From Desulfovibrio sp. (GTDB lineage: Bacteria; Desulfobacterota; Desulfovibrionia; Desulfovibrionales; Desulfovibrionaceae), in assembly GCA_031272405.1 (NCBI GenBank), contig JAISTW010000024.1, positions 1 to 35,586 of the forward strand: 35,586 nucleotides of DNA. The letters run 5' to 3'. The notes under the pieces are model-generated. The model had not been told where the DNA came from. It saw nothing but the letters and a program-made list of their open reading frames with translations, and ran no database searches. The translations under genes and the position numbers were made by a program. Below, in pieces: positions 12,142-26,778 of the stretch (positions are counted from its first letter, which is position 1; each line of letters opens with the position of its first letter).

Positions 12142-13248
12142 TCAGCCTTGGCTGACGGGCGTATAGTCCATGGTGCGCTGTACCGGGGTAAAACCGGCCG
12201 CCCGGATGATTTTGTGTATCTCCTCGCGGTTGAGACGGTAGGATACCCCGGCGGCGGCCACGACATTTTCCTCAATCATCAGGGAGCCAAAGTCATTGGC
12301 GCCGTAAAAAAGGGCCAATTGAGCCGTCTGTGGCCCCATCGTCACCCAGGATGCCTGAATATTCGGCACGTTGTCGAGAACCAGCCGGGAGACGGCAAGC
12401 AGCCTCAAATAGGCCGGCGCGGGCAGGGGGAGCCGGGAGATTTTGGTGTTTGCCGGCTGGAATGTCCAGGGGATGAAGGCGGTGAAGCCTCCGGAGCGAT
12501 CCTGCAGGGCGCGCACGGCAAAGAGGTGGTCCAAACGGTGTTCCGGAGCTTCCTCATGACCGAACATCATGGTGGCTGTGGAGCGCAACCCGAGTTTGTG
12601 CGCTTCCTCCATAACGAACAACCACTCGTCGGCGGAACATTTGTTGGGGGAAACCCTTCGTCTGATCTCATTGTGCAGAATTTCCGCCCCGCCGCCAGGC
12701 AGGGAGCGAAGGCCGGCTGCCTTGAGCCGGGAGAGCACTTCCGGGACAGGCAGGTTGAACTTCCGCGACCAGAAAAATATTTCCGGCGGCGAAAAGGCGT
12801 GAATATGGAGATCGGGCCATGTCGCGCTCAGCCAGCGCAGCAGATCTTCGTACCATTCCAGGGGCAGATCGGGATGGTGACCGCCCTGCAACAATATTTG
12901 CGTACCGCCCAGAGTCAGCATTTCTTCGATCTTTCGCCGCATTTCCTCCCGGCTGACGACATAGCCGCTTTCGCTTTCAGGAGCGTGGAAAAAGGCGCAG
13001 AATCGGCAGCCACACACGCATATGTTGGAATAGTTGATGTTGCGGTCTCCAACGTAAGTCACCACCGGCTCCGGATGCAGGCGCATACGCGCGGCATGGG
13101 CCAAAGCTGCCAGGGTGTGCAGACTGGCCTTGTAATACAGCATGTCGGCGGCGTTTCGGTCAAGGCGTTCCCCGCGCGACGCAATCCGGGCCGCCTCAAG
13201 CGTATCGGCGTTTTCTTCGAGGGGACTGTGGGCGGGGTCAAAAAGCAT
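12142..13248 (-). CDS. mqnC: Cyclic dehypoxanthinyl futalosine synthase MqnC (radical SAM)
   Basis: A 368-residue radical SAM enzyme. The [4Fe-4S] motif C-x3-C-x2-C is at Cys77, Cys81 and Cys84 within [16 protein letters not shown]; Cys79 is an extra cysteine inside the motif. [19 protein letters not shown] and [10 protein letters not shown] follow as in MqnC. It cyclises dehypoxanthine futalosine in the futalosine route to menaquinone. The start is placed at 13248, the ATG that overlaps the end of mqnE by 11 nt; a start nine codons further up would lack homologous sequence. It pairs with the paralogous mqnE just upstream, so two consecutive pathway steps are co-transcribed. Confidence 0.92.
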
Positions 13249-14383
13249 GATCCGCCTCGGAAAGCCCGGGGGCAAGGTTTTCGAAAACGGCGTTGCGACG
13301 CACGGGCCTGAATCCCGAACAGCGTATCATGGCTTCCAGTTCCCCGATTGTCAGCCCTTGAGAGGACTCGGCGCCGGCCATGTGGCCGATGCGTTCCTCG
13401 ACAATGGTTCCGTCCAGATCGTCAGCGCCGTACCAGAGGGCTGTTTGCGCCGTCTTTGCCCCCATCATTATCCAATAGGCCTTGATGTGGGGAATATTGT
13501 CCAGCATCATGCGTGCGACGGCGACGGTGCGCAGTTGATCCAGGCCGCGTTGCGGCCCGGCTTTGTCTTCTGGCAGCACCAGGGCGCTGTTTTTTGTCAG
13601 GAAAGGCAGAGGAATAAAACAGGTGAATCCGCCGCTTTGGTCCTGTTGCTCGCGCAGACGGCACAGGTGATCCACGCGCTGGGCAAAGGTTTCCAAATGG
13701 CCGAAAAGCATGGTGCAGTTTGTTTTTATGCCCAGCGAGTGAGCCTCGGCAGAAATGCGGAGCCAGGCGGCGGCATCGGCCTTGCGTGGACATATTTTTT
13801 TGCGCAATGTGTCGTCGAAAATTTCCGCCCCGCCGCCGGGCATCATGACGAGGCCGACGGCCTTAAGCCGTTTGAGCGTTTCCAGGGTGCTTATGCCTTC
13901 AAGATTGGCCAGATGCGCTATCTCCACCGGAGTGAAGGCCTTGATCGGGATGTTGGGGTTATATGCCCGCACGGTCCGGAAAACGTCCTCAAACCAGGTC
14001 AGAGACAGGGATGGATGGCAACCGCCCACAAAGTGCATTTCGTCCAGATGCAGCGGGCTCTGATCCACAGCGCGCAAACGCGACAAAATATCCTCTTTGC
14101 TCAGGACAAAAGCGCCCGGCTCGTCTTCCCCGCTGCGGCGGAAGGCGCAAAAAACGCAATCGTTGACGCAGATGTTGCTGTAATTGATTTGCCTGTTGAC
14201 CACATAAAAAACCGCGTCTTTGTGCAGACGCGCGCGGACGTGCATGGCCAGCGCCCCCAGGGCGGTGCTGTCCGGGCAGGCGAAAAGGGACAGCCCGTCG
14301 TCATAACTCAGTCTGCGGCCGGCAAGGACTTTGTCGTATATGGAAGAAAGACCGAGTTTGGCATAGCAGCGCGCGTCAAGCAT
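13238..14383 (-). CDS. mqnE: Aminofutalosine synthase MqnE (radical SAM)
   Basis: A 381-residue radical SAM enzyme with C-x3-C-x2-C at Cys72, Cys76 and Cys79 (ICVNDCVFCAF). MHFVGGCHPSL, FTPVEIAHLA, MMPGGGAEIFDD and TNCTMLFGHLET follow as in MqnE. It adds the adenosyl radical to 3-[(1-carboxyvinyl)oxy]benzoate to form aminofutalosine in menaquinone synthesis. It is paralogous to the adjacent MqnC but distinguished by GGCHPSLSLTWFED. AGGAAA lies upstream of the ATG and a good promoter lies at 14434-14463. MqnA, MqnB and MqnD are not in this window. Confidence 0.92.
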   Translation of the reverse strand: MLDARCYAKLGLSSIYDKVLAGRRLSYDDGLSLFACPDSTALGALAMHVRARLHKDAVFYVVNRQINYSNICVNDCVFCAFRRSGEDEPGAFVLSKEDILSRLRAVDQSPLHLDEMHFVGGCHPSLSLTWFEDVFRTVRAYNPNIPIKAFTPVEIAHLANLEGISTLETLKRLKAVGLVMMPGGGAEIFDDTLRKKICPRKADAAAWLRISAEAHSLGIKTNCTMLFGHLETFAQRVDHLCRLREQQDQSGGFTCFIPLPFLTKNSALVLPEDKAGPQRGLDQLRTVAVARMMLDNIPHIKAYWIMMGAKTAQTALWYGADDLDGTIVEERIGHMAGAESSQGLTIGELEAMIRCSGFRPVRRNAVFENLAPGLSEADHAF

Positions 14384-14541: not shown

Positions 14542-17500
14542 ATGTCCAGTCTCACCCAGATAAAAGCCTCTGCCGGCTCGGGCAAAACATATGCCCTCAT
14601 CCAGAATTTTTTGAACTTGCTTCTGGACTGTTCTCCTTCGGGATATTTGCCGACCGGCATCGTGTCTCCAGCCTGTTCGCTCGCGCCAAACTCCCTGATG
14701 AGGGCGAACGCGTCGTCCGACCTCGACAATATCCTGGCCGTCACCTTCACCAACGCGGCCGCCAACGAAATGCGCGATCGCGTCCTTGGCAACCTCAAGA
14801 CAGCCGCTCTGGGCATGTCTCCCTCCATCCCGGTGGAAGGACTCTCGCGGGATGTCGCCGAACAGTGGACAGATGCCATCCTCCAGGATTTCAACTCCCT
14901 CAATATCCGCACCATTGACAGTCTGCTGCTCCGCATCGTGTATGCGGCCGCCCTTGAACTTGGTCTGCATCCGGACTTTGCGCCTGTCTTCGACACCCGC
15001 GAAGCCATTGAACCCTATCTGGACGTATTCATGGAGAGAGCTTGGCAGGGCGATGTTCTTGCCGGCGACATGGTGAAGAATATCTGCTCTGTCCTTGTGC
15101 GGCACGAACAGGTCAAAGGATTCTGCGACAACAACTCGTTGCTGGACGCCGTCACCATGATGCTGGACGCTGTTCTTAAGGGCAAACTGCATGACCTGAC
15201 TCCGCCCGAACTGCTGGAGGCGCGTCTGAAAACAATAGAACGCGAAGCGCCGGCAGCGGCTACGGCTTTCCTCAACCGTGTCGAAGAGGCGGGCATGACC
15301 GGCGACCTGCACAAAAATTCCTTGGCGGCTCTGTTCCGTCTTGGCGCGGGTGACAGAAAATGCCCCACGACATATCTGACAAAAGAACATTGTGAAGATA
15401 TGTTCCGTAAGAACATACACATACCGGACTCCGTCCGGACGGCCTTCGACGCGTTTGCTCTCATGGCCCCCCGCTGGGGCCATGAAAGAGCGCTGTTGGC
15501 CCACGCCGTTGGCAATTACGGCCTTGCGGATTTGGCCCGCATTTTGGTGGAGGCGTTTCGACTGAACATGCGTCAGGATGGCCTGCTCCCCATAATCCTT
15601 GTTCCGGAACTCGCACGTAAAGCCCTTGAGGCAGAAAACGGTGTGCCGGATATGCTCTGCCGCCTGGGGAATCTGTTTACCCATTTTCTGCTCGACGAAT
15701 TCCAGGACACAAACCGCGAACAATGGGCCGCCATGCGTCCGCTGGTGGAAGAGGCGCTTGCGCGCGGTGGTTCCCTGACCTGCGTGGGAGACGGCAAACA
15801 GTCCATTTACGGGTGGCGGGACGCCGATCCGGAACTTTTCGCCGTTGTCTTTCAGGATAAAGGCCTTCTGCGCATCGCCGGCGAACCCTTCATCCGGATT
15901 CTGCCGTATAACTGGCGCAGCCGACCGGCCATCATCTCCTTCAACAACGCCCTGTTCGGCGCCTTGGCCCTGAAGGGCGTGGCCGAGGCCGTGATGGCGC
16001 GTCTGCTGGGGGAAGATGAGTCATCGGACAGCGTCGCTGCCCAGGCAGAGCTACTCAGGCAAAATTTCTCCGGCTGTGAACAAAAAAGTCCGAAATCAGA
16101 CGAAATCAACGGCGAAAGCGGTTTTGTCCGAATAGAGACACTTGTCTCAGAAGAAAAAAAAGAGACTTTCGACCTGCTCTTTCTGGAACGTTGTCGGGAT
16201 TTGCTGCGGGAAGTGCATGAACGCAGGCCTTGGAGCGATATACTCGTGCTGGTGCGCGGCAATGAGCAAGCTGGAATGATCACCGAACGCTGTCTGGAGG
16301 AAAATATCCCCGTCGTCACGGAAAACAGCCTCCTGCTGGCCGAACACTGTTTGATTCGGCAAACCATCGCTTTCTTGCGTTTTCTGGACAAACCCGACGA
16401 CATCGCTTTCTGGACCGTTATCAGCGGCAGGGTGTTTTCCCCAATCCTCGACCGGGAAGGGATTACGCCGCGCAAACTGGAGGATTTTCTGTTCGCGAGG
16501 GCGCGGCATACGAGTCTTTCCGCCCAGTTCGCCGTTCTCTGGCCGAGCGTCTGGGGCGTGCTGGAATTCTTTAAGGAACAGGCCGGGCTGCTCGGCATCT
16601 ACGATTTGGTCCATGAATGGTACGCTCGTATGTCCCTGGAAGAGCGTTTTCCACAGGCTGTCCCCTTTGTCCAACGTTTTCTGGAAACGCTTTTCACGGC
16701 GGAGAACAAGGGAGTGGCCTCAATTTCCGAATTTCTCCGTTTATGGGAACGGGCGCGGCTGGAAGAAAAACTGCCTCAGCCGGAAAATATGGATGCCGTG
16801 CGCGTTATGACCATACATAAGGCCAAGGGGCTGGAAGCGCCCGTGGTTATTGTAGCCGGCGCCAATTACACGACTAGGGACAGAATTTGTCCGACTCTCC
16901 GCGTTTTCGACGATCTGCGCCTCGTCGTCTCCAACGGATCCCTGCTGGCGCCGGAGGCGCGGCAGGAAGAGCGGGGCAGACAGGCTTTGGAAAACATAAA
17001 TCTGCTTTACGTCGCTCTGACCAGAGCCCGGGAAGAACTGTACGTGTTCGTGGAACAGCGCAAGAGACAAAAGAGAGGCGTTGGCGATGTGTTGCCCTAT
17101 CTGGCGCAAGCGGCCGGGTATGACAGCCCGGACATGAGCCTGGGAACTGTCCCTGCCCCGCGGCTTCGGCTGGAAGGGCAACCGGAACAAACGACGGAAG
17201 CTCTCGTTCACGGCTTGCCCGTCAAGGCAGAATCCCGGCCTGAAGAACCCGTTGTCCGGATTGAGGACGAAGCCGGTGAATCCCATCTCTATCTGGAGAC
17301 GGGCCAGCGTACGCCTTTTTTGCTTTTCTCTTGGCGCAAACCATTTCTACCCGCCCTGAAGCGCGTTTTGGACGATTTCGCCGACGAAAAAACCGCTCGG
17401 GCATTGGTGCTGTTGCCCAACAACAGGCCTCGGCGCTGGCTCCGCCGCCTGTATGAAATCGAGCGCCGGATGCCGCCCCGAATGCTTACCATTGAAGAAG

Positions 17501-20241
17501 CTGTCCGTTTGACCCACGCCCATGCCAGAGGGCGGATCAGGCGCGCAGCCAATCCCGGTAAACCGGTCAATCCCGTCAAAAGGCTCAACCATCTTGACCG
17601 GGCGGCGCTGCTGCGCGACTGCGTTCGCCGTGTTGGGGAACACGACCCGGTCTTGGGAGCGCACTTCGCCCATATGAGCATTACGGAATTTTTCCCCTGG
17701 GGACAGCGTTTGGGTGAAATTCTTGAGGAAATGCTCATTTGTCAGGCGACAGAGCAGAATGCGACCGGCATGGACGTCGAAGTTGGCCCGCACGCGGCGG
17801 CTCTGTTGGGTAGCCTGGGCACATTGTTCCATGCCTACCGCGACGCGCTGGAGCAAGGCGGATGGACAACTCCCGGGCTGGATCACGCCGTGGCGGCCGG
17901 AACAGACCCGCCCTCCAGTCTGTTGCCAGGACCGGAGCGCATCGTGTTCATAGCCGGTTTTTACCTGCCGGCTCGCACGGAAGACGCCTTCCTGCGCAAA
18001 CTCTGGCAGGCCGGAGCTCATGTTTGTTTGCATACGGATCCATATCTCGAACATTTCGCATGCGCGGAACACAAACGCTGGATGCGGCGCTGGCACGCCG
18101 TTGGTCAGCGCGTTGAAGAAGATGAAACCTCTGATATCCCCGTTGTACGTTTTTTCCGCGGGCATGACGTTCATTCCCAACTGGCCCGCCTTCGGGAATG
18201 CCTGCAGAGCACATCCGGTTCAACAGTCATCGTGCCGGGGGACAACGCCATATTGTCGCCCCTATTGCGCAGCTTGCCGGAGCGCGACGTCAACATTTCC
18301 ATGGGGCGGCCTCTGGCTCGCTCGCCACTGTGTCTGCTTGTTGAAAACCTCTTGCGCATGCAGGCCAACAGTTTTGAGGGGCATCTCTTTTACTGGCGAG
18401 ATATGTTGCGTTGTCTGCAACACCCATACCTGAAGCGTCTGCGCCTGGTGGATAATCCTGGCGAAGTTCGCTCGGATGACGTAACTCGAAACAAACTCCA
18501 CAGCGCTCTTCAACTGCTCTGCGCGCGCGTCAGGACAGGATCGCGTTTCGTCAGCCCTGAAGATCTGATCCGGGAGTCCAGCCCGCAAATGAGTCCCGCC
18601 GAAATCCGCATGCTCGCCGAAACCCTGCGTACCCTGTTCATTCCCCTTATGGGCATGACGACAACGGCCCAAGCCGCCGATTGGCTGGAGAACCTCTGCC
18701 GCCACATTGAGGAACACGGCGGCGAACCGGATGTGCGGGACGTACGCCGGCTGCGCCGTGCCGTCATTCCACCTCTGAGCGGGAACAGACTCAGGGATGA
18801 AGCCTTCCCCCAGAACACGCTGTTTGCCATTGTACGGGAATTGATACAAAAAGAACGCATCCCTTTTGAAGATGAGCGGTTCACTGATATACAGATTTTG
18901 GGCATGCTGGAAACGCGACTCCTGCATTTTGAACGGGTTTTTATAGTGCAGGCCACGGATGCCTGCCTGCCCGGCAGTCCGCCCCACGACACCTTGTTGC
19001 CGGAATCCCTTCGGCAGGCCTTGGGCCTGCCGGACGCCGCGCGCCGGGAAAACATGGTCGCACACACCCTGTACCGGCTCTGCGCTGGCGCGGGAGAAGC
19101 GTATTTTCTCTGGCAGGAGGGCGGCGGCGCCTCGACCATTATGGACGGCAAGCACGAACGCAGCCGTTTTGTGGAGCAGTTTATCTGGCAGGAGGAACGC
19201 CGGAGAGGACAGATTTTGACGCCCGGCGTCCCTCCCCTGTTTGTCGCCCGGCGCCGGGCGCGGCCTGAAGCGAAGGTTTTTCGGGAGATGGAATGCGGCG
19301 ACGCCGCGCGCGTCGTCCTGAACGAACTTTTGCGCAAGGGGGTGTCGGCCAGCCTGCTGGACGGTTATTTGCGCTGTCCGCTTGCCTTTGCCTACAGATG
19401 CCTGTGCGGGCTTGGCAGGCCGGAAGAGATGCTTGAGGGAGATGATCCCCCGGCTGTGGGATACTGTCTCCACAACACGTTACGGGATATCTACAGCCCG
19501 TACGTCGGGAAAACATTTCTGCCTGCGGAAAGCATCAGTTTGACAGCGCTGCGTCACGCTCTGGAGCGCGCCATGGACAAAGACAACCTGCGCGACAAGC
19601 TCCCTCCTGCCGCCTGCGCCATACTTAGGGCCGCGGGCGAACACCGGCTTTGGCGCTACATACGGGCCCAGAAACATCCCATCACTGTTCTGGCTCTGGA
19701 AGAGCCGGCACAGGCCGCAGTATCCCTGGCAAACCCATCGGGCGTTTGGCCCGGTGGCCAAACTTCAGACATTCCGTTACGCGGAGTACTGGACAGGCTG
19801 GAGCGCCGGGACGGTCTGCTCTATGTGCTGGATTACAAGAGCGGCGGCGCTGCTGTCCCCAAGGCGGATTTCTGGAATGACGGGGATTTTTTCGCCTTGA
19901 CGGCGGCTCTTGGCGCGGACTGGGAAGCGGAGAACGCCGCGGTGTTTTTGAATCGGTTGCGCGCCGACCTGCGTTCTTTGCAGCTGCCCTGCTATGTGCG
20001 CCTGTTGGCGGAGACGCGCCTCGCCGAAGACATAGGCGGCGCGGCCTTCGTGCTGCTCAGGGAAGACGGCAGGCACGCGCCGCTCTATACGGCCGACGGT
20101 GCCGACGAGCGTCGGGCCGGAGTTCAAGCCTGCGCCGATCTGTTGAGGGCGACGATCAATCATTTGGCCCATGTGGAAAAATTTGAGCCCTTGCCCGGCA
20201 GGCAGTGCGACTATTGCGACTTTATTGATTTGTGTCGGTAA
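14542..20241 (+). CDS. Single-chain AddA-AddB: UvrD-like helicase fused to iron-sulfur exonuclease
   Basis: A 1899-residue protein with no internal stop. Residues 1 to about 850 are an AddA/RecB-type superfamily 1 helicase: Walker A ASAGSGKT (9-16), DEFQDT (385-390), GDGKQSIYGWRD (about 416-427), NWRS (457-460), MTIHKAKGLE (756-765) and LLYVALTRAREE (821-832). About 90 low-complexity linker residues follow. From residue 924 (TPFLLFSWRKPFL, then LLPNNRPRRWL) the sequence resembles the start of an AddB-like subunit. It ends in a RecB-family nuclease: GYCLH (His1644), Asp1751 and DYK (Asp1764-Tyr-Lys1766). Iron-sulfur cysteines are Cys1612, Cys1889, Cys1892 and Cys1898. Such enzymes resect double-strand breaks for RecA. 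The AddA-type C-terminal nuclease is absent. The ribosome site is weak. Confidence 0.88.
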   Translation: MSSLTQIKASAGSGKTYALIQNFLNLLLDCSPSGYLPTGIVSPACSLAPNSLMRANASSDLDNILAVTFTNAAANEMRDRVLGNLKTAALGMSPSIPVEGLSRDVAEQWTDAILQDFNSLNIRTIDSLLLRIVYAAALELGLHPDFAPVFDTREAIEPYLDVFMERAWQGDVLAGDMVKNICSVLVRHEQVKGFCDNNSLLDAVTMMLDAVLKGKLHDLTPPELLEARLKTIEREAPAAATAFLNRVEEAGMTGDLHKNSLAALFRLGAGDRKCPTTYLTKEHCEDMFRKNIHIPDSVRTAFDAFALMAPRWGHERALLAHAVGNYGLADLARILVEAFRLNMRQDGLLPIILVPELARKALEAENGVPDMLCRLGNLFTHFLLDEFQDTNREQWAAMRPLVEEALARGGSLTCVGDGKQSIYGWRDADPELFAVVFQDKGLLRIAGEPFIRILPYNWRSRPAIISFNNALFGALALKGVAEAVMARLLGEDESSDSVAAQAELLRQNFSGCEQKSPKSDEINGESGFVRIETLVSEEKKETFDLLFLERCRDLLREVHERRPWSDILVLVRGNEQAGMITERCLEENIPVVTENSLLLAEHCLIRQTIAFLRFLDKPDDIAFWTVISGRVFSPILDREGITPRKLEDFLFARARHTSLSAQFAVLWPSVWGVLEFFKEQAGLLGIYDLVHEWYARMSLEERFPQAVPFVQRFLETLFTAENKGVASISEFLRLWERARLEEKLPQPENMDAVRVMTIHKAKGLEAPVVIVAGANYTTRDRICPTLRVFDDLRLVVSNGSLLAPEARQEERGRQALENINLLYVALTRAREELYVFVEQRKRQKRGVGDVLPYLAQAAGYDSPDMSLGTVPAPRLRLEGQPEQTTEALVHGLPVKAESRPEEPVVRIEDEAGESHLYLETGQRTPFLLFSWRKPFLPALKRVLDDFADEKTARALVLLPNNRPRRWLRRLYEIERRMPPRMLTIEEAVRLTHAHARGRIRRAANPGKPVNPVKRLNHLDRAALLRDCVRRVGEHDPVLGAHFAHMSITEFFPWGQRLGEILEEMLICQATEQNATGMDVEVGPHAAALLGSLGTLFHAYRDALEQGGWTTPGLDHAVAAGTDPPSSLLPGPERIVFIAGFYLPARTEDAFLRKLWQAGAHVCLHTDPYLEHFACAEHKRWMRRWHAVGQRVEEDETSDIPVVRFFRGHDVHSQLARLRECLQSTSGSTVIVPGDNAILSPLLRSLPERDVNISMGRPLARSPLCLLVENLLRMQANSFEGHLFYWRDMLRCLQHPYLKRLRLVDNPGEVRSDDVTRNKLHSALQLLCARVRTGSRFVSPEDLIRESSPQMSPAEIRMLAETLRTLFIPLMGMTTTAQAADWLENLCRHIEEHGGEPDVRDVRRLRRAVIPPLSGNRLRDEAFPQNTLFAIVRELIQKERIPFEDERFTDIQILGMLETRLLHFERVFIVQATDACLPGSPPHDTLLPESLRQALGLPDAARRENMVAHTLYRLCAGAGEAYFLWQEGGGASTIMDGKHERSRFVEQFIWQEERRRGQILTPGVPPLFVARRRARPEAKVFREMECGDAARVVLNELLRKGVSASLLDGYLRCPLAFAYRCLCGLGRPEEMLEGDDPPAVGYCLHNTLRDIYSPYVGKTFLPAESISLTALRHALERAMDKDNLRDKLPPAACAILRAAGEHRLWRYIRAQKHPITVLALEEPAQAAVSLANPSGVWPGGQTSDIPLRGVLDRLERRDGLLYVLDYKSGGAAVPKADFWNDGDFFALTAALGADWEAENAAVFLNRLRADLRSLQLPCYVRLLAETRLAEDIGGAAFVLLREDGRHAPLYTADGADERRAGVQACADLLRATINHLAHVEKFEPLPGRQCDYCDFIDLCR

Positions 20242-22530: not shown

Positions 22531-25500
22531 TTATCCCCAGATGATCAGACCGGTTTCCAAAGGTGATTCCAGCCCCTTGTGCATGGGCATAAAGCGGATG
22601 CCGTAGCGGTACAGCCCGGTGTGGGCGGGAATATAGGCGCCGGAGAATTCCACTCCGCCGGATGTCTTTTTGCCGACAAGACGCAACGTTTCGGGATTTC
22701 CCTTGAAATTGCCGTTAGCGTACACAGGCCCCATCACAAGCTGGGCCAGAATTTCTCCAGGCTCCATAACGCCCGGGTCAATACGCACCCTGATGCTGAC
22801 AGGTTCCCCACAGGTCATGGAGTTGTTTTGCAAGCCGCTGACGATGATTTCCTCTATTTTTATGGAGCGGAAGCGCGTTGCCAGGTCCTTCTGCCAGACG
22901 GCCAGTTCTTTGCCCAACGTCCAATTATCCTGAGCCAGAGTCTCCCGACGTTTGGCGGCCGGAACATACGCCCAGTCGACGTAATCCCGCAACATGCGGT
23001 TGGAGCTGTACATGGCCGTCAAACTTTTCAGCGAACGTTTGGAGGTGTCAATCCAGCCTTTGGGCAAGCCTTGGTCGTCCCTGCTGAAATAGAGAGGCAC
23101 GACGTTTTCTTCAAGCAACGTGTACAGCGAGGCCGCGTCGTCATAGTCGCTCTGCGGTTGCAAAGGCAATTCCGTGGTCAGCACGGTGCCAATGGTCCAG
23201 CCGTTGGCGCGGTTGTATCCCTCGCACCACCAGCCGTCGGAAATGCTGAGGTTGATGCCGCCGTTAACGGGCAATTTCATGCCGCTTGTCCCCGACGCCT
23301 CGTGCGGCCTGCGCGGTGTGTTGAGCCACACGTCGCAACCCTGGGAGAGCAGACGGGAGACTCCAAGATTGTAATTTTCGATGAAGAATATCTTTCCCAG
23401 AAAGCGCTCATCAAGGGACAGACGTATCACCTGCTGGATGAGATCAATGCCGGGCTCGTCGGCTGGATGCGCTTTGCCCGAGAAGATGAAGCAGACGGGC
23501 CTGTCAGGATTGTTCAGAATTTTCGCCAGTCTGTCGGGGTCGGCGAAAAGCAGGGTGGCCCGCTTGTAGGGGGCGAAACGACGCGCGAAACCGATGAGCA
23601 GGGTACTCGGGATGAGGTGGTTCTCCATTTGGCGACGCTTGTCGCGGGGGAGTTTGAATTTTTCCATAATGCCAGCTATCCTGAAGTGCAGATATTCCAG
23701 CAGCGCCTCTTTTTGCGATAGATGGGCAGCCCAGTAGGCGTCGGCCGGTATCCCGTCCACCTTTTGCCAGACAGGGGAATCCGGCGGCGCTGAAATCCAG
23801 TCCGGCCCGAGATGGGCGTCCAGAATTTCACGCATGTGCGAGCCCACATACGAGGGCGTATGCACGCCGTTGGTGACGTAGTGAATGGGCGTTTCCGCCT
23901 CCGGCAGTCCTTTCCAGAGATTGCTCCACATGCGACGCGAAACCTCGCCGTGCAGACGGCTCACGCCGTTGGCGCGGAAGGAAAGACGCAGAGCCAGCAC
24001 CGTCATTTCAAAGTGCCCGGCATTGCCTCCTTCTATCTGGCCCAGGTTTACGAAACTCTGCCAGTCAAGGCCAAGATTTCCGGCTATACCGCTGAAATAG
24101 CGTTCCATGAGATCCAGGGCGAAGGCCTCGTTGCCAGCCGGCACAGGCGTATGAGTGGTAAAGATGGTGTTGGCCCTGACAGCCACCACCGCCTCTTCGT
24201 AGCTCAAACCGGTGGCCATGAATCCGTGCAGGCGCTCCAGGGCCAGGAAGGCGGAGTGCCCTTCATTCATGTGATAGACGCGCGGCTCAATGTCGAGTTT
24301 TCGCAACAGCCGCACGCCGCCGATGCCGAGAAGCATTTCCTGCAACAGGCGGATTTCGCGGTTGGCCTCGTAGAGCCGGTCCGTGATGTGACGATCTTCA
24401 TCCGTATTGCGGCGCGTGTCCGTGTCCATAAGATACAGGGAAATTCTGCCGACCTGCATTTTCCACACTCTGGCGTAGCAGATGCGGCCCGGCAAATCCA
24501 GCTGGATAAATACGGGTTCTCCGGCCTTGTCGTACATCATGCTCACGGGCAGGTGCGCGAAATTGTTGACTGGATAGCGGGGGATCTGCCGTCCGTCCTC
24601 GCTGATTTCCTGCATAAAATAGCCGTTTTTGTACAAAAGCCCGATGCCGACCAGAGGGAGGGCCATATCCGAGGCCGATTTGAGGTGGTCGCCGGAAAGC
24701 ACCCCCAGGCCGCCGGAATAGATGGGCACTGACTCGTGCAGCCCGTATTCCGTCGAAAAATAGGCGATGGGATGCTCCGGCGTCAACTCGTCGCTCAGGG
24801 AGCGCTGCGGTTCGGCCATATATTTGTCAAATTCCTGCAGAACATCCTCGTACAGCGCGCGGTATTCCGCATTGTTCACCAGGTGGGTCAGGCGTTCCTG
24901 GTCAACTTCTTCTATCATGCGCAGCGGATTGTGGGATTCTTCCCAAAGCTGGGGATCCAGCCTGAAGAAAAGATCTCTCGCTTTCTCGTTCCAGCACCAC
25001 CACAGGTTCGCGGCAAGATCGCGCATCCTGGCGAATTCCTTGGGCAATACGGGTACGGCCATGATCTGGCGCAAAAAGGGCGTCACAGTGGAGGAGGCGG
25101 ACAGTATCCTGACCAACTCCCGGTGGCTCGTTACGGCGGCGATGCGTCCTTCCGCCTTGTCCAGAGCCATTCTGAACGCCTTGAGATAATTTTCGTAAAA
25201 ATGCTGCCAGGAGGTTTTTTCCGCCAGAAGGCGCGCGTTTTTGCGCCTCAGGTCCATGTGCTCCACAGCGCCGCTGATGGAGTTCATCACGGCGCTGTGC
25301 AGGGCGTCTATACACTGTTCCTGGGCCAGTCCGCGTCTGGGCAAAACAAAAACACCGGGATACGGTTCGGAAATGTCCGAAGACATGCCCTTGGCCCACA
25401 TGCCGAATCCGGAAAGGTCGGTGGTGAGAGTCGGCACGGCCCAGGCCGCGCATTCCTGCGGCGTGTATCCCCAAGGCTCGTACCAGGACGGGAAGAATCC

Positions 25501-26778
25501 CGCGTCGCATGCGGAAAGCACTTCTTCATAGGGCATGTTCAAAAAGCCGTCATGTCCGTCAAGCATGGCCGGTATGAAAATCACCTTGACTGGCCGTTCC
25601 GGTCTGTTGTCGAGACCGATGCGGCGGCAGAGGTTGATGACGGGGTCTTCCGGCGCGTTCCAGACATTGTGCGTGCAGATGAAGGGATTACCGTTGTCGC
25701 TGGCCTGCGGATCGCCGGAAATGGCCGCCTCGTTGACGCCGGTATGCCCTCCCATGATCAGGCAGAACACAAGCACCGACGTCTCCGTGCCGGAAATGCT
25801 TTTGGCGGCTCGGCCCAGGGCTTCCAGAAAAACATCCACGCCCTTGTTGTGCATCTCATAGCGTCCGGAGATGACGAAGACCATCGTTTGCTCGAGCAGC
25901 CTGCAACGCAGGAAGCGCTCCGCGGCGGCCATGATTTGGGCACGTCTGATCAGCGGTTCGGTTCTGTCTTCCGAATAATCGGGTATGACGCGCAAATCCA
26001 GGCCGTTCAGCGTAATCGTGTCGGGCTGGCGGCCCAGAAAAATGGAAGACTCCACGCCGGTGATGGGGCTGACGGTGGTGAAGGCGTCAGCCTCCCTGGC
26101 CGAGATGCTTTCCATGGAAAATTTCGCGGTAATGTTGAGCGACGCGGCCTCCTGAGACGGATTGAGACTGCGCAGGTTGCTGTATATGTCCCGTCCTGTG
26201 CCGGCCAGAGCCCGGCCCAGCATGGTGGCGTGCGTGGTGAAAACCGTGCCCACCCCCGGCGCCATTTTTTTGAGGGTCAGCAGACCGGCCCCGCACATCC
26301 ACTCATGGAACAGGGCGACGGACTTGTCGCCCAGCGGTTCCACCAGCGTCTCGTGGATGGTGGATATGACCTCTCCGCAGGCGGAAGAGAACATGACCGG
26401 CTCTATATAGTCCCATCCCCCGGAAAGCGAATCCACACCGTAGTTTTTCCACAATTCGTAAAGGAGCTGGTTGCTGGAATAACGATTGGCGAAATCCACC
26501 AGAATGGCCTTGGGACGCCCGGGAATATCCCAGCGCCCCAGACGGCATTTGAGATTTTTAAGGGCCAAAGCCGTGCGCAGGGAATCCCAGGCCTGCTCCT
26601 CCGTTTCCTCAAAGCCGGCGTTACGCTGCAAATCCGGTCCAAGGAGGAAATAGTCCTCACCGAAGGTTTCCACAGACTGCAAGGCCTTGCTGCTTATAAC
26701 GGAGTAAATGCCGCCCACTTTGTTGCAGACTTCCCAACTGACTTCAAAAAGCGTGACGGTGGAATTGTTGAAATCCAT
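22531..26778 (-). CDS. GT3 glycogen synthase fused to GT35 alpha-glucan phosphorylase
   Basis: A 1415-residue two-enzyme protein. Residues 1 to about 570 resemble GT3 (eukaryotic-type) glycogen synthase: it begins FEVSWEVCNKVGGIYSV, has FTTHATMLGRAL, and carries the catalytic-type EPWGYTPQE (about Glu434 and Glu442). From about residue 575 it is a phosphorylase with the DUF3417 N-terminal region (DLAANLWWCWNEKARDLF). YFSTEYGLHESVPIYSGGLG and FTTHTPVPAGNEAF follow, as does the PLP lysine at about residue 1168 in EASGTSGMKLP. The first half would elongate glucan from a nucleotide sugar; the second would release glucose-1-phosphate from it. GGAG lies 6-7 nt before the ATG. It is the last gene of the glycogen operon. 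Confidence 0.9.
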   Translation of the reverse strand: MDFNNSTVTLFEVSWEVCNKVGGIYSVISSKALQSVETFGEDYFLLGPDLQRNAGFEETEEQAWDSLRTALALKNLKCRLGRWDIPGRPKAILVDFANRYSSNQLLYELWKNYGVDSLSGGWDYIEPVMFSSACGEVISTIHETLVEPLGDKSVALFHEWMCGAGLLTLKKMAPGVGTVFTTHATMLGRALAGTGRDIYSNLRSLNPSQEAASLNITAKFSMESISAREADAFTTVSPITGVESSIFLGRQPDTITLNGLDLRVIPDYSEDRTEPLIRRAQIMAAAERFLRCRLLEQTMVFVISGRYEMHNKGVDVFLEALGRAAKSISGTETSVLVFCLIMGGHTGVNEAAISGDPQASDNGNPFICTHNVWNAPEDPVINLCRRIGLDNRPERPVKVIFIPAMLDGHDGFLNMPYEEVLSACDAGFFPSWYEPWGYTPQECAAWAVPTLTTDLSGFGMWAKGMSSDISEPYPGVFVLPRRGLAQEQCIDALHSAVMNSISGAVEHMDLRRKNARLLAEKTSWQHFYENYLKAFRMALDKAEGRIAAVTSHRELVRILSASSTVTPFLRQIMAVPVLPKEFARMRDLAANLWWCWNEKARDLFFRLDPQLWEESHNPLRMIEEVDQERLTHLVNNAEYRALYEDVLQEFDKYMAEPQRSLSDELTPEHPIAYFSTEYGLHESVPIYSGGLGVLSGDHLKSASDMALPLVGIGLLYKNGYFMQEISEDGRQIPRYPVNNFAHLPVSMMYDKAGEPVFIQLDLPGRICYARVWKMQVGRISLYLMDTDTRRNTDEDRHITDRLYEANREIRLLQEMLLGIGGVRLLRKLDIEPRVYHMNEGHSAFLALERLHGFMATGLSYEEAVVAVRANTIFTTHTPVPAGNEAFALDLMERYFSGIAGNLGLDWQSFVNLGQIEGGNAGHFEMTVLALRLSFRANGVSRLHGEVSRRMWSNLWKGLPEAETPIHYVTNGVHTPSYVGSHMREILDAHLGPDWISAPPDSPVWQKVDGIPADAYWAAHLSQKEALLEYLHFRIAGIMEKFKLPRDKRRQMENHLIPSTLLIGFARRFAPYKRATLLFADPDRLAKILNNPDRPVCFIFSGKAHPADEPGIDLIQQVIRLSLDERFLGKIFFIENYNLGVSRLLSQGCDVWLNTPRRPHEASGTSGMKLPVNGGINLSISDGWWCEGYNRANGWTIGTVLTTELPLQPQSDYDDAASLYTLLEENVVPLYFSRDDQGLPKGWIDTSKRSLKSLTAMYSSNRMLRDYVDWAYVPAAKRRETLAQDNWTLGKELAVWQKDLATRFRSIKIEEIIVSGLQNNSMTCGEPVSIRVRIDPGVMEPGEILAQLVMGPVYANGNFKGNPETLRLVGKKTSGGVEFSGAYIPAHTGLYRYGIRFMPMHKGLESPLETGLIIWG

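Follow-up and report, generated by a model that had tools for sequence, protein, structure and literature searches.

A single open reading frame on the forward strand (14542-20241) of the window, by which we mean the whole stretch of 35,586 nucleotides of Desulfovibrio sp. DNA that was analysed, encodes an AddA-like helicase and an AddB-like protein in one chain, and the only nuclease of that chain is the one of AddB. Judged by its sequence, the protein is a reduced single-chain derivative of AddAB, neither canonical AddAB nor RecBCD. The sequence facts are strong; the activity of the fused protein we infer from them, and it would probably consist in always resecting the 5' strand, with no Chi needed to spare the 3' strand.

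The frame is unbroken, as the first-pass annotation had described: it holds 1899 codons plus a stop, with no internal stop in the translation of the window, and at such a length and degree of conservation chance would be no option for it. Its two parts meet in an 85-residue junction (residues 839-923; 17056-17310, forward strand), delimited by homology, codon usage, start codons and model confidence (pLDDT), at the position occupied in relatives by the nuclease and stop of AddA and by the start of AddB. In a structure model of residues 1-933 (mean pLDDT 82) the helicase is well ordered and is followed by a short ordered helix and strand (residues 847-868). From about residue 871 onward the mean pLDDT is 29-48 per block, and this part of the junction is predicted to be a disordered, flexible tether. 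The AddB-like sequence begins at residue 924, where it had been placed from the first reading.

Joined genes of this kind could be produced by an assembly or sequencing artefact, with an indel or a misjoin putting a nuclease-less addA and an adjacent addB into one frame. The fusion is known from one assembly, and the corresponding gene pairs of the genus are mostly out of frame (of 63 same-strand pairs, 49 are offset by two, 9 by one, and 5 are in frame), so that one indel could join the two reading frames. Such an origin is nevertheless quite improbable. Homology to P0002, the nearest AddA relative (51% identity), holds the AddA frame through residue 876 (position 17169); no homopolymer of four or more bases lies in 17169-17311; and in each of the nine 120-base windows across the junction frame 0 scores best by codon usage (narrowest margin at 17062-17181). 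In relatives AddB starts shortly upstream of the conserved core, by a few residues, with a Met or, in L039 and L040, a Val, whereas here the sole in-frame start in 17169-17311, and from the ATG of residue 865 to the core, is a TTG at 17215, with no ATG and no GTG (another TTG, at 17320, is already inside the core). We take the fusion as real, as read from a single assembly that is 80.65% complete.

The first part of the protein (residues 1-838; 14542-17055, forward strand) is an AddA-like SF1A helicase of the UvrD/RecB type, as indicated by Pfam, PDB searches, conserved sites and the structure model. Pfam places UvrD-helicase at residues 5-434 and UvrD_C at 710-837, and the NCBIfam matches in this half are of the AddA/RecB type, all below their curated cut-offs. 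A single-sequence PDB search with the fused protein returned helicases only, the best being AddA (3u44_A, E 1.7e-19). The helicase motifs are kept, and only one of 83 near-invariant helicase sites of the genus is changed. These residues mark the helicase half as an intact 3'-5' motor. A search with P0002 (E<=10) found no second AddA in the window's assembly, at its completeness of 80.65%.

The AddB half consists of a helicase-like region of the Chi-scanner type (residues 924-1600; 17311-19341) and an iron-sulfur PD-(D/E)XK nuclease (residues 1601-1899; 19342-20238), both on the forward strand; the latter was found as PF12705 (PDDEXK_1) in a search with the whole protein (E 4.6e-25). A model of the AddB half built from 27 sequences (mean pLDDT 83) has its closest fold in AddB (4cej_B, E 7.5e-22), and the AddB chains are followed by RecC, a subunit of RecBCD, with AdnAB ranking lower. 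By sequence, a 17-row AddB profile matches AddB in the PDB (3u44_B, E 7e-11); a narrower sequence search of the AddB half against the PDB returned mainly designed helical proteins and no AddB, and the NCBIfam addB_alphas match is weak (residues 1253-1512) and below its curated cut-off. The AddB of Bacillus subtilis is about 13% identical to the window's protein in the fold alignment.

All nuclease residues named in the first-pass annotation are where it put them: His1644 (19471-19473), Asp1751 (19792-19794), Asp1764-Tyr-Lys1766 (19831-19839), the first iron-sulfur ligand Cys1612 (19375-19377) and the remaining ligands Cys1889, Cys1892 and Cys1898 (20206-20235), on the forward strand in each case. 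In the genus alignment every one of the 64 other AddB rows that extend to those columns has the His-Asp-Asp-Lys set. The four cysteines are complete in 62 of 63 other rows, and in the remaining one (L085) a base is unread.

The window's sequence has a long end branch in the AddA and AddB tree described below (1.79, against a median of 0.21), and 8 of 99 conserved AddB sites are changed in it. These values might point to a decaying copy, in which function is being lost after the fusion and the branch reflects relaxed selection. We consider this quite unlikely: the helicase half has its single changed site in 83, the catalytic triad and iron-sulfur cysteines are intact, 1899 codons are free of stops, and five other rows deviate in AddB as much or more (L062, 14/104; L064, 11/104; L059, 10/104; L089, 8/104; L087, 8/100).

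The absence of the AddA nuclease from between the helicase and AddB, as claimed on first reading, was borne out. Pfam, alignment with P0002 and the structure model reveal no such nuclease in the linker (residues 839-923). A nuclease hidden in residues 833-923 was rejected, because the tether is too short for a domain of about 180 residues; structure prediction shows only the 85-residue linker there, disordered from about residue 871, and local homology to P0002 ends at residue 876, before the nuclease of P0002.

We surveyed a genus sample of 79 genomes, 73 of which had a helicase match at 1e-30; 75 loci were taken, with 5 more from the order. Not one pair is fused among the 64 genus loci in which both genes were long enough to examine. 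AddA lies upstream of AddB on the same strand in 63 of these, and within 184 bases in 62 of the 63; at L062 addA and addB are on opposite strands and not fused. Four candidate fusions were rejected, since a single in-frame stop separates the frames in G009, G032 and G057, and 60 bases do so in G030.

Among the 72 AddA tails in the survey, three ended at a contig end before the domain, leaving 69 to be judged. The nuclease motif is present in 61 of them (L092, which runs to the contig end, is included), and the catalytic Lys is replaced by Arg (DYR) in two (L061 and L088). The whole domain is deleted in another six (L039, L040, L048, L051, L095 and L096), whose tails of 86-112 residues end soon after a conserved WLP(R/H)LKI stretch. 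Genome G014 carries a second AddA, with DYK (L062).

The earlier picture of a single chain without an AddA nuclease stands, and no other pair of the genus shares the fusion (0/64). The nuclease loss is not peculiar to the fusion: the six nuclease-less relatives have separate genes, so fusion is not needed for the loss. Together with the predicted disorder of the tether, these relatives would also fit a protein that in practice works as two polypeptides, made from an internal start or by proteolysis of the tether and associating as usual, the fusion fixing their stoichiometry only. The lack of an in-frame ATG or GTG from residue 865 to the AddB core speaks against this, and we hold it to be unlikely; a single working chain remains our preferred reading.

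Across the order, 248 genomes were searched (those with a completeness of 90% or more, together with that of the window), and 218 had an AddA match at 1e-15. Among the matches listed, a few of whose loci were read, members of the family outside the genus either have frames longer than 1100 residues or match P0002 into its nuclease. In another genus of the family (L120-L123), addA and addB lie in one frame with a single stop codon between them. Two other families of the order have ORFs of 175-183 residues with AddA-nuclease motifs, situated near the helicase in L114 and L119 and between the helicase and AddB in L116 and L117 (L118 is partial), and a free-standing AddA-type nuclease gene thus appears to exist in these families. 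In a third family (L067-L070) AddA is a helicase only, and AddA-type nuclease motifs are found at the N-terminus of AddB. The small ORF of L119 (4885-5433) also gave a weak search match (18.5 bits), and it shares with L067 the invariant Gly, His, Glu, Arg, Asp, Lys, Gln and Tyr of the AddA nuclease; displaced nucleases other than these two were recognised by eye from their motifs.

A nine-row AddA-nuclease profile that includes L119 and L067, one example of each displaced form, found no match at E<=10 in the window's assembly (80.65% complete). On four control genomes with the domain, which offer no free-standing nuclease gene, the same profile gave E values of 4.2e-52 or better. It also found no match at E<=10 in G001, G003, G010, G035 and G087, and two weak matches in G086 (E 0.015, on the AddB frame, and E 0.21, on a 509-residue frame). 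Since the window's assembly is incomplete, a nuclease encoded elsewhere could be missing from it, and the small nuclease ORFs of the other families, like the nuclease domain ahead of AddB in L067-L070, would be models for an ordinary two-nuclease AddAB in new packaging, with its second cutter supplied in trans by an unassembled gene. That arrangement is very unlikely, as the profile, which includes both displaced forms, was without a match in the window's assembly and also in three near-complete relatives with a nuclease-less AddA (G010, 100%; G035, 99%; G087, 99%).

In a 37-row helicase tree, to which nine database proteins were added, the window's protein is sister to P0002 (SH-aLRT 100), and the group around both also takes in the six nuclease-less relatives as well as L044/L111, which keep the nuclease. 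In a 31-row tree of AddA and AddB together (the seven nuclease-less rows and 24 chosen others), the supported branches force three changes. A single loss was rejected, with one clade of all seven nuclease-less rows at p-AU 0.007; one clade of the six other rows was rejected as well (p-AU 0.0014). Placing the window with L039 and L040 passes the topology test, with a log-likelihood 14.6 higher than that of the free tree, and so does placing it with L048/L051/L095/L096 (p-AU 0.078); the length of the window's branch makes its placement less sure. From these trees, at least two losses of the AddA nuclease in the genus are firmly indicated, and three fit best.

P0002 keeps its AddA nuclease (a search with its last 203 residues picks up that domain in other AddA proteins), and the window's protein is without the WLPRLKI stretch present in the other nuclease-less AddA. 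This combination points to a single deletion running from the interdomain linker as far as the AddB start, so that nuclease loss and fusion may be one and the same event. Starting from an ordinary addA-addB pair, an in-frame deletion, or a small series of them, would have taken out the AddA nuclease together with the addA stop and the addB start, and would have left the interdomain linker of AddA running into the AddB core.

The RecJ of the same genome (L129) is nearest by identity to that of G001 (79% over 237 residues), with G086, G087 and G003 at 70-73%, whereas the window's AddA is only 45-47% identical to the AddA of these four. With RecJ close and AddA diverged, the fusion locus may either have been replaced from elsewhere or be fast-evolving. 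Ten ORFs flank the fusion (two of them alternatives for one place), and only an ABC ATPase matches the short flanks of the relatives, with three weak matches. Just upstream, on the opposite strand, are two adjacent radical-SAM genes of the CofH/MqnC type (12142-13275 and 13238-14383). A second fusion in the window (22531-26778, reverse strand) encodes a 1415-residue protein with a glycogen synthase region (residues 12-346), DUF3417 and a glycogen phosphorylase region (834-1182), and adjoins GH57, glycosyltransferase and debranching-enzyme genes.

Searches for further AddA-AddB fusions, which scored only candidates sharing most words, returned two proteins. Among the best 120 of 227 matches, P0042 (2265 residues) was the only further protein long enough for both halves, and a search with the AddB half (98 matches) gave no other protein of more than 1148 residues; P0218 (2202 residues), found by a length-restricted search, is 74% identical to P0042. 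In both, a single chain carries the AddA helicase as well as AddB, and the AddA nuclease has its catalytic Lys changed to Pro and has lost the motif His and Gln. Their local identity to the window's protein is 23% and 25%, and, unlike it, they still hold a remnant of the AddA nuclease. Their sequences mark them as a fusion independent of the window's, with an inactivated AddA nuclease, and our guess is that their host belongs to the Bacteroidota. With the nuclease absent in one and dead in the other, both fusions that were found have the AddB cutter only. Scanning genome contigs with P0001 gave no match, and scanning with the P0042/P0218 alignment gave two Bacteroidota loci with AddB frames of 975 and 991 residues, not fused. 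In the published literature on AddAB, most subscription papers apart, we found no AddA-AddB fusion.

The window's protein shares with AddAB / RexAB (Bacillus subtilis; PDB 3u44, 4ceh, 4cej) the SF1A motor of AddA with its motifs, the helicase-like scanner fold of AddB, the intact C-terminal iron-sulfur nuclease of AddB and the order of AddA before AddB. Those enzymes have two chains and two cutters, whereas here there would be one chain and one cutter, on the 5'-strand side. Because two features that define AddAB are lacking, namely the C-terminal nuclease on AddA and, at the level of the gene, the separate subunits, the protein does not count as canonical AddAB. RecBCD has one nuclease only, of the AddA type, on RecB; RecC, the AddB-like subunit, is not known to have an active nuclease, and RecD is a second motor. 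The suggestion made on first reading, that a one-nuclease enzyme would be nearer to RecBCD, had the matter the wrong way round: we reject a RecBCD-like reading because the retained nuclease is that of AddB, with its residues intact, while the AddA-type nuclease kept by RecBCD is gone, so that the two are mirror images. The window's assembly gave no match to RecC.

AdnAB of mycobacteria consists of two chains with a motor and a nuclease on each; these are related motor-nuclease chains, but the window has one frame and one nuclease. Dna2 / Bad also joins a helicase and an iron-sulfur nuclease in one chain, and differs from the window's protein in its domain order and its SF1B motor; it is not known to have an AddB scanner. 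In the Wolbachia of isopods the entire nuclease domain of AddA is described as naturally lost, and, according to the work cited there, repair can still operate without it (PMC4224334); unlike in the window, a premature stop in addA is responsible, and addA and addB are separate genes (PMC4224334). As far as these sources go, nuclease-less AddA is thus already known and the parts are familiar, and what is unfamiliar is the one-piece, one-cutter form.

In the AddAB of B. subtilis the 3' strand is cut by the AddA nuclease and the 5' strand by the AddB nuclease, and Chi protects the 3' strand against the former (PMC4824097). We carry these strand roles over to the window's enzyme by analogy: with the 3'-strand cutter lost and the AddB nuclease kept, probably only the 5' strand is trimmed. 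The motor would unwind a broken DNA end, the 3' strand would pass intact through the scanner of AddB, and only the 5' strand would be cut, by the AddB nuclease. The product would be a 3' overhang for RecA (present in the window's genome) from the first step, as made by AddAB after Chi. Mapped through the profile alignment, F210 and the latch residue E129 of B. subtilis AddB correspond to F1140 and E1063, both kept, and their equivalents are conserved in all seven nuclease-less rows. Chi may therefore still be read, perhaps for pausing; the conservation is suggestive only, and gives no sign that Chi reading was given up. If still read, Chi could pause or hold the enzyme, with no 3'-strand cutter left to switch off.

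We also found AddB columns that deviate in all three nuclease-less groups from the 57 reference rows of the genus (among which L053 and L066 have an unknown AddA). At a threshold of 0.7 there are 26 such columns, a total that 15 of the 576 overlapping control sets also attain; 11 of the columns precede residue 1030, a number attained by no control set. The corresponding numbers are 8 columns (reached by 44 control sets) with 3 before residue 1030 (19 sets) at a threshold of 0.8, and 2 columns (42 sets), both before residue 1030 (2 sets), at 0.9. These counts are to be read with the cut at 1030 picked post hoc, with control sets that are not independent and with indels in the region. Window residues 960, 964, 978 and 1015 (17419-17586) are changed in 7, 7, 6 and 3 of the seven nuclease-less rows, respectively, and the 57 other rows have His (79%), Trp (84%), Leu (98%) and Ala (98%) there. 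Parallel changes in the AddB N-terminus after loss of the AddA nuclease are therein suggested, as a lead only.

In the accepted picture AddAB has two nucleases, one per strand, and Chi shields the 3' strand from one of them. A broader and more tentative idea, which we rate as possible rather than probable, is that the AddA nuclease is a detachable module: in this order it would have been deleted in some lineages, inactivated by point mutation in others, and elsewhere turned into a small gene of its own or attached to AddB, while all through the genus the nuclease of AddB is retained. Nuclease-less AddAB would then be a constitutive, Chi-independent machine for 5'-strand resection, the N-terminal domain of AddB, around the channel for the 3' strand, would be changing along with it, and the window's chain would be its most reduced natural form. 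Lineages with a 5'-strand cutter only raise the question whether Chi regulation is dispensable for natural break repair, and they may serve as ready-made natural mutants for testing it. The single-chain version would in addition offer a simple enzyme of fixed 1:1 stoichiometry for studies of mechanism and structure.
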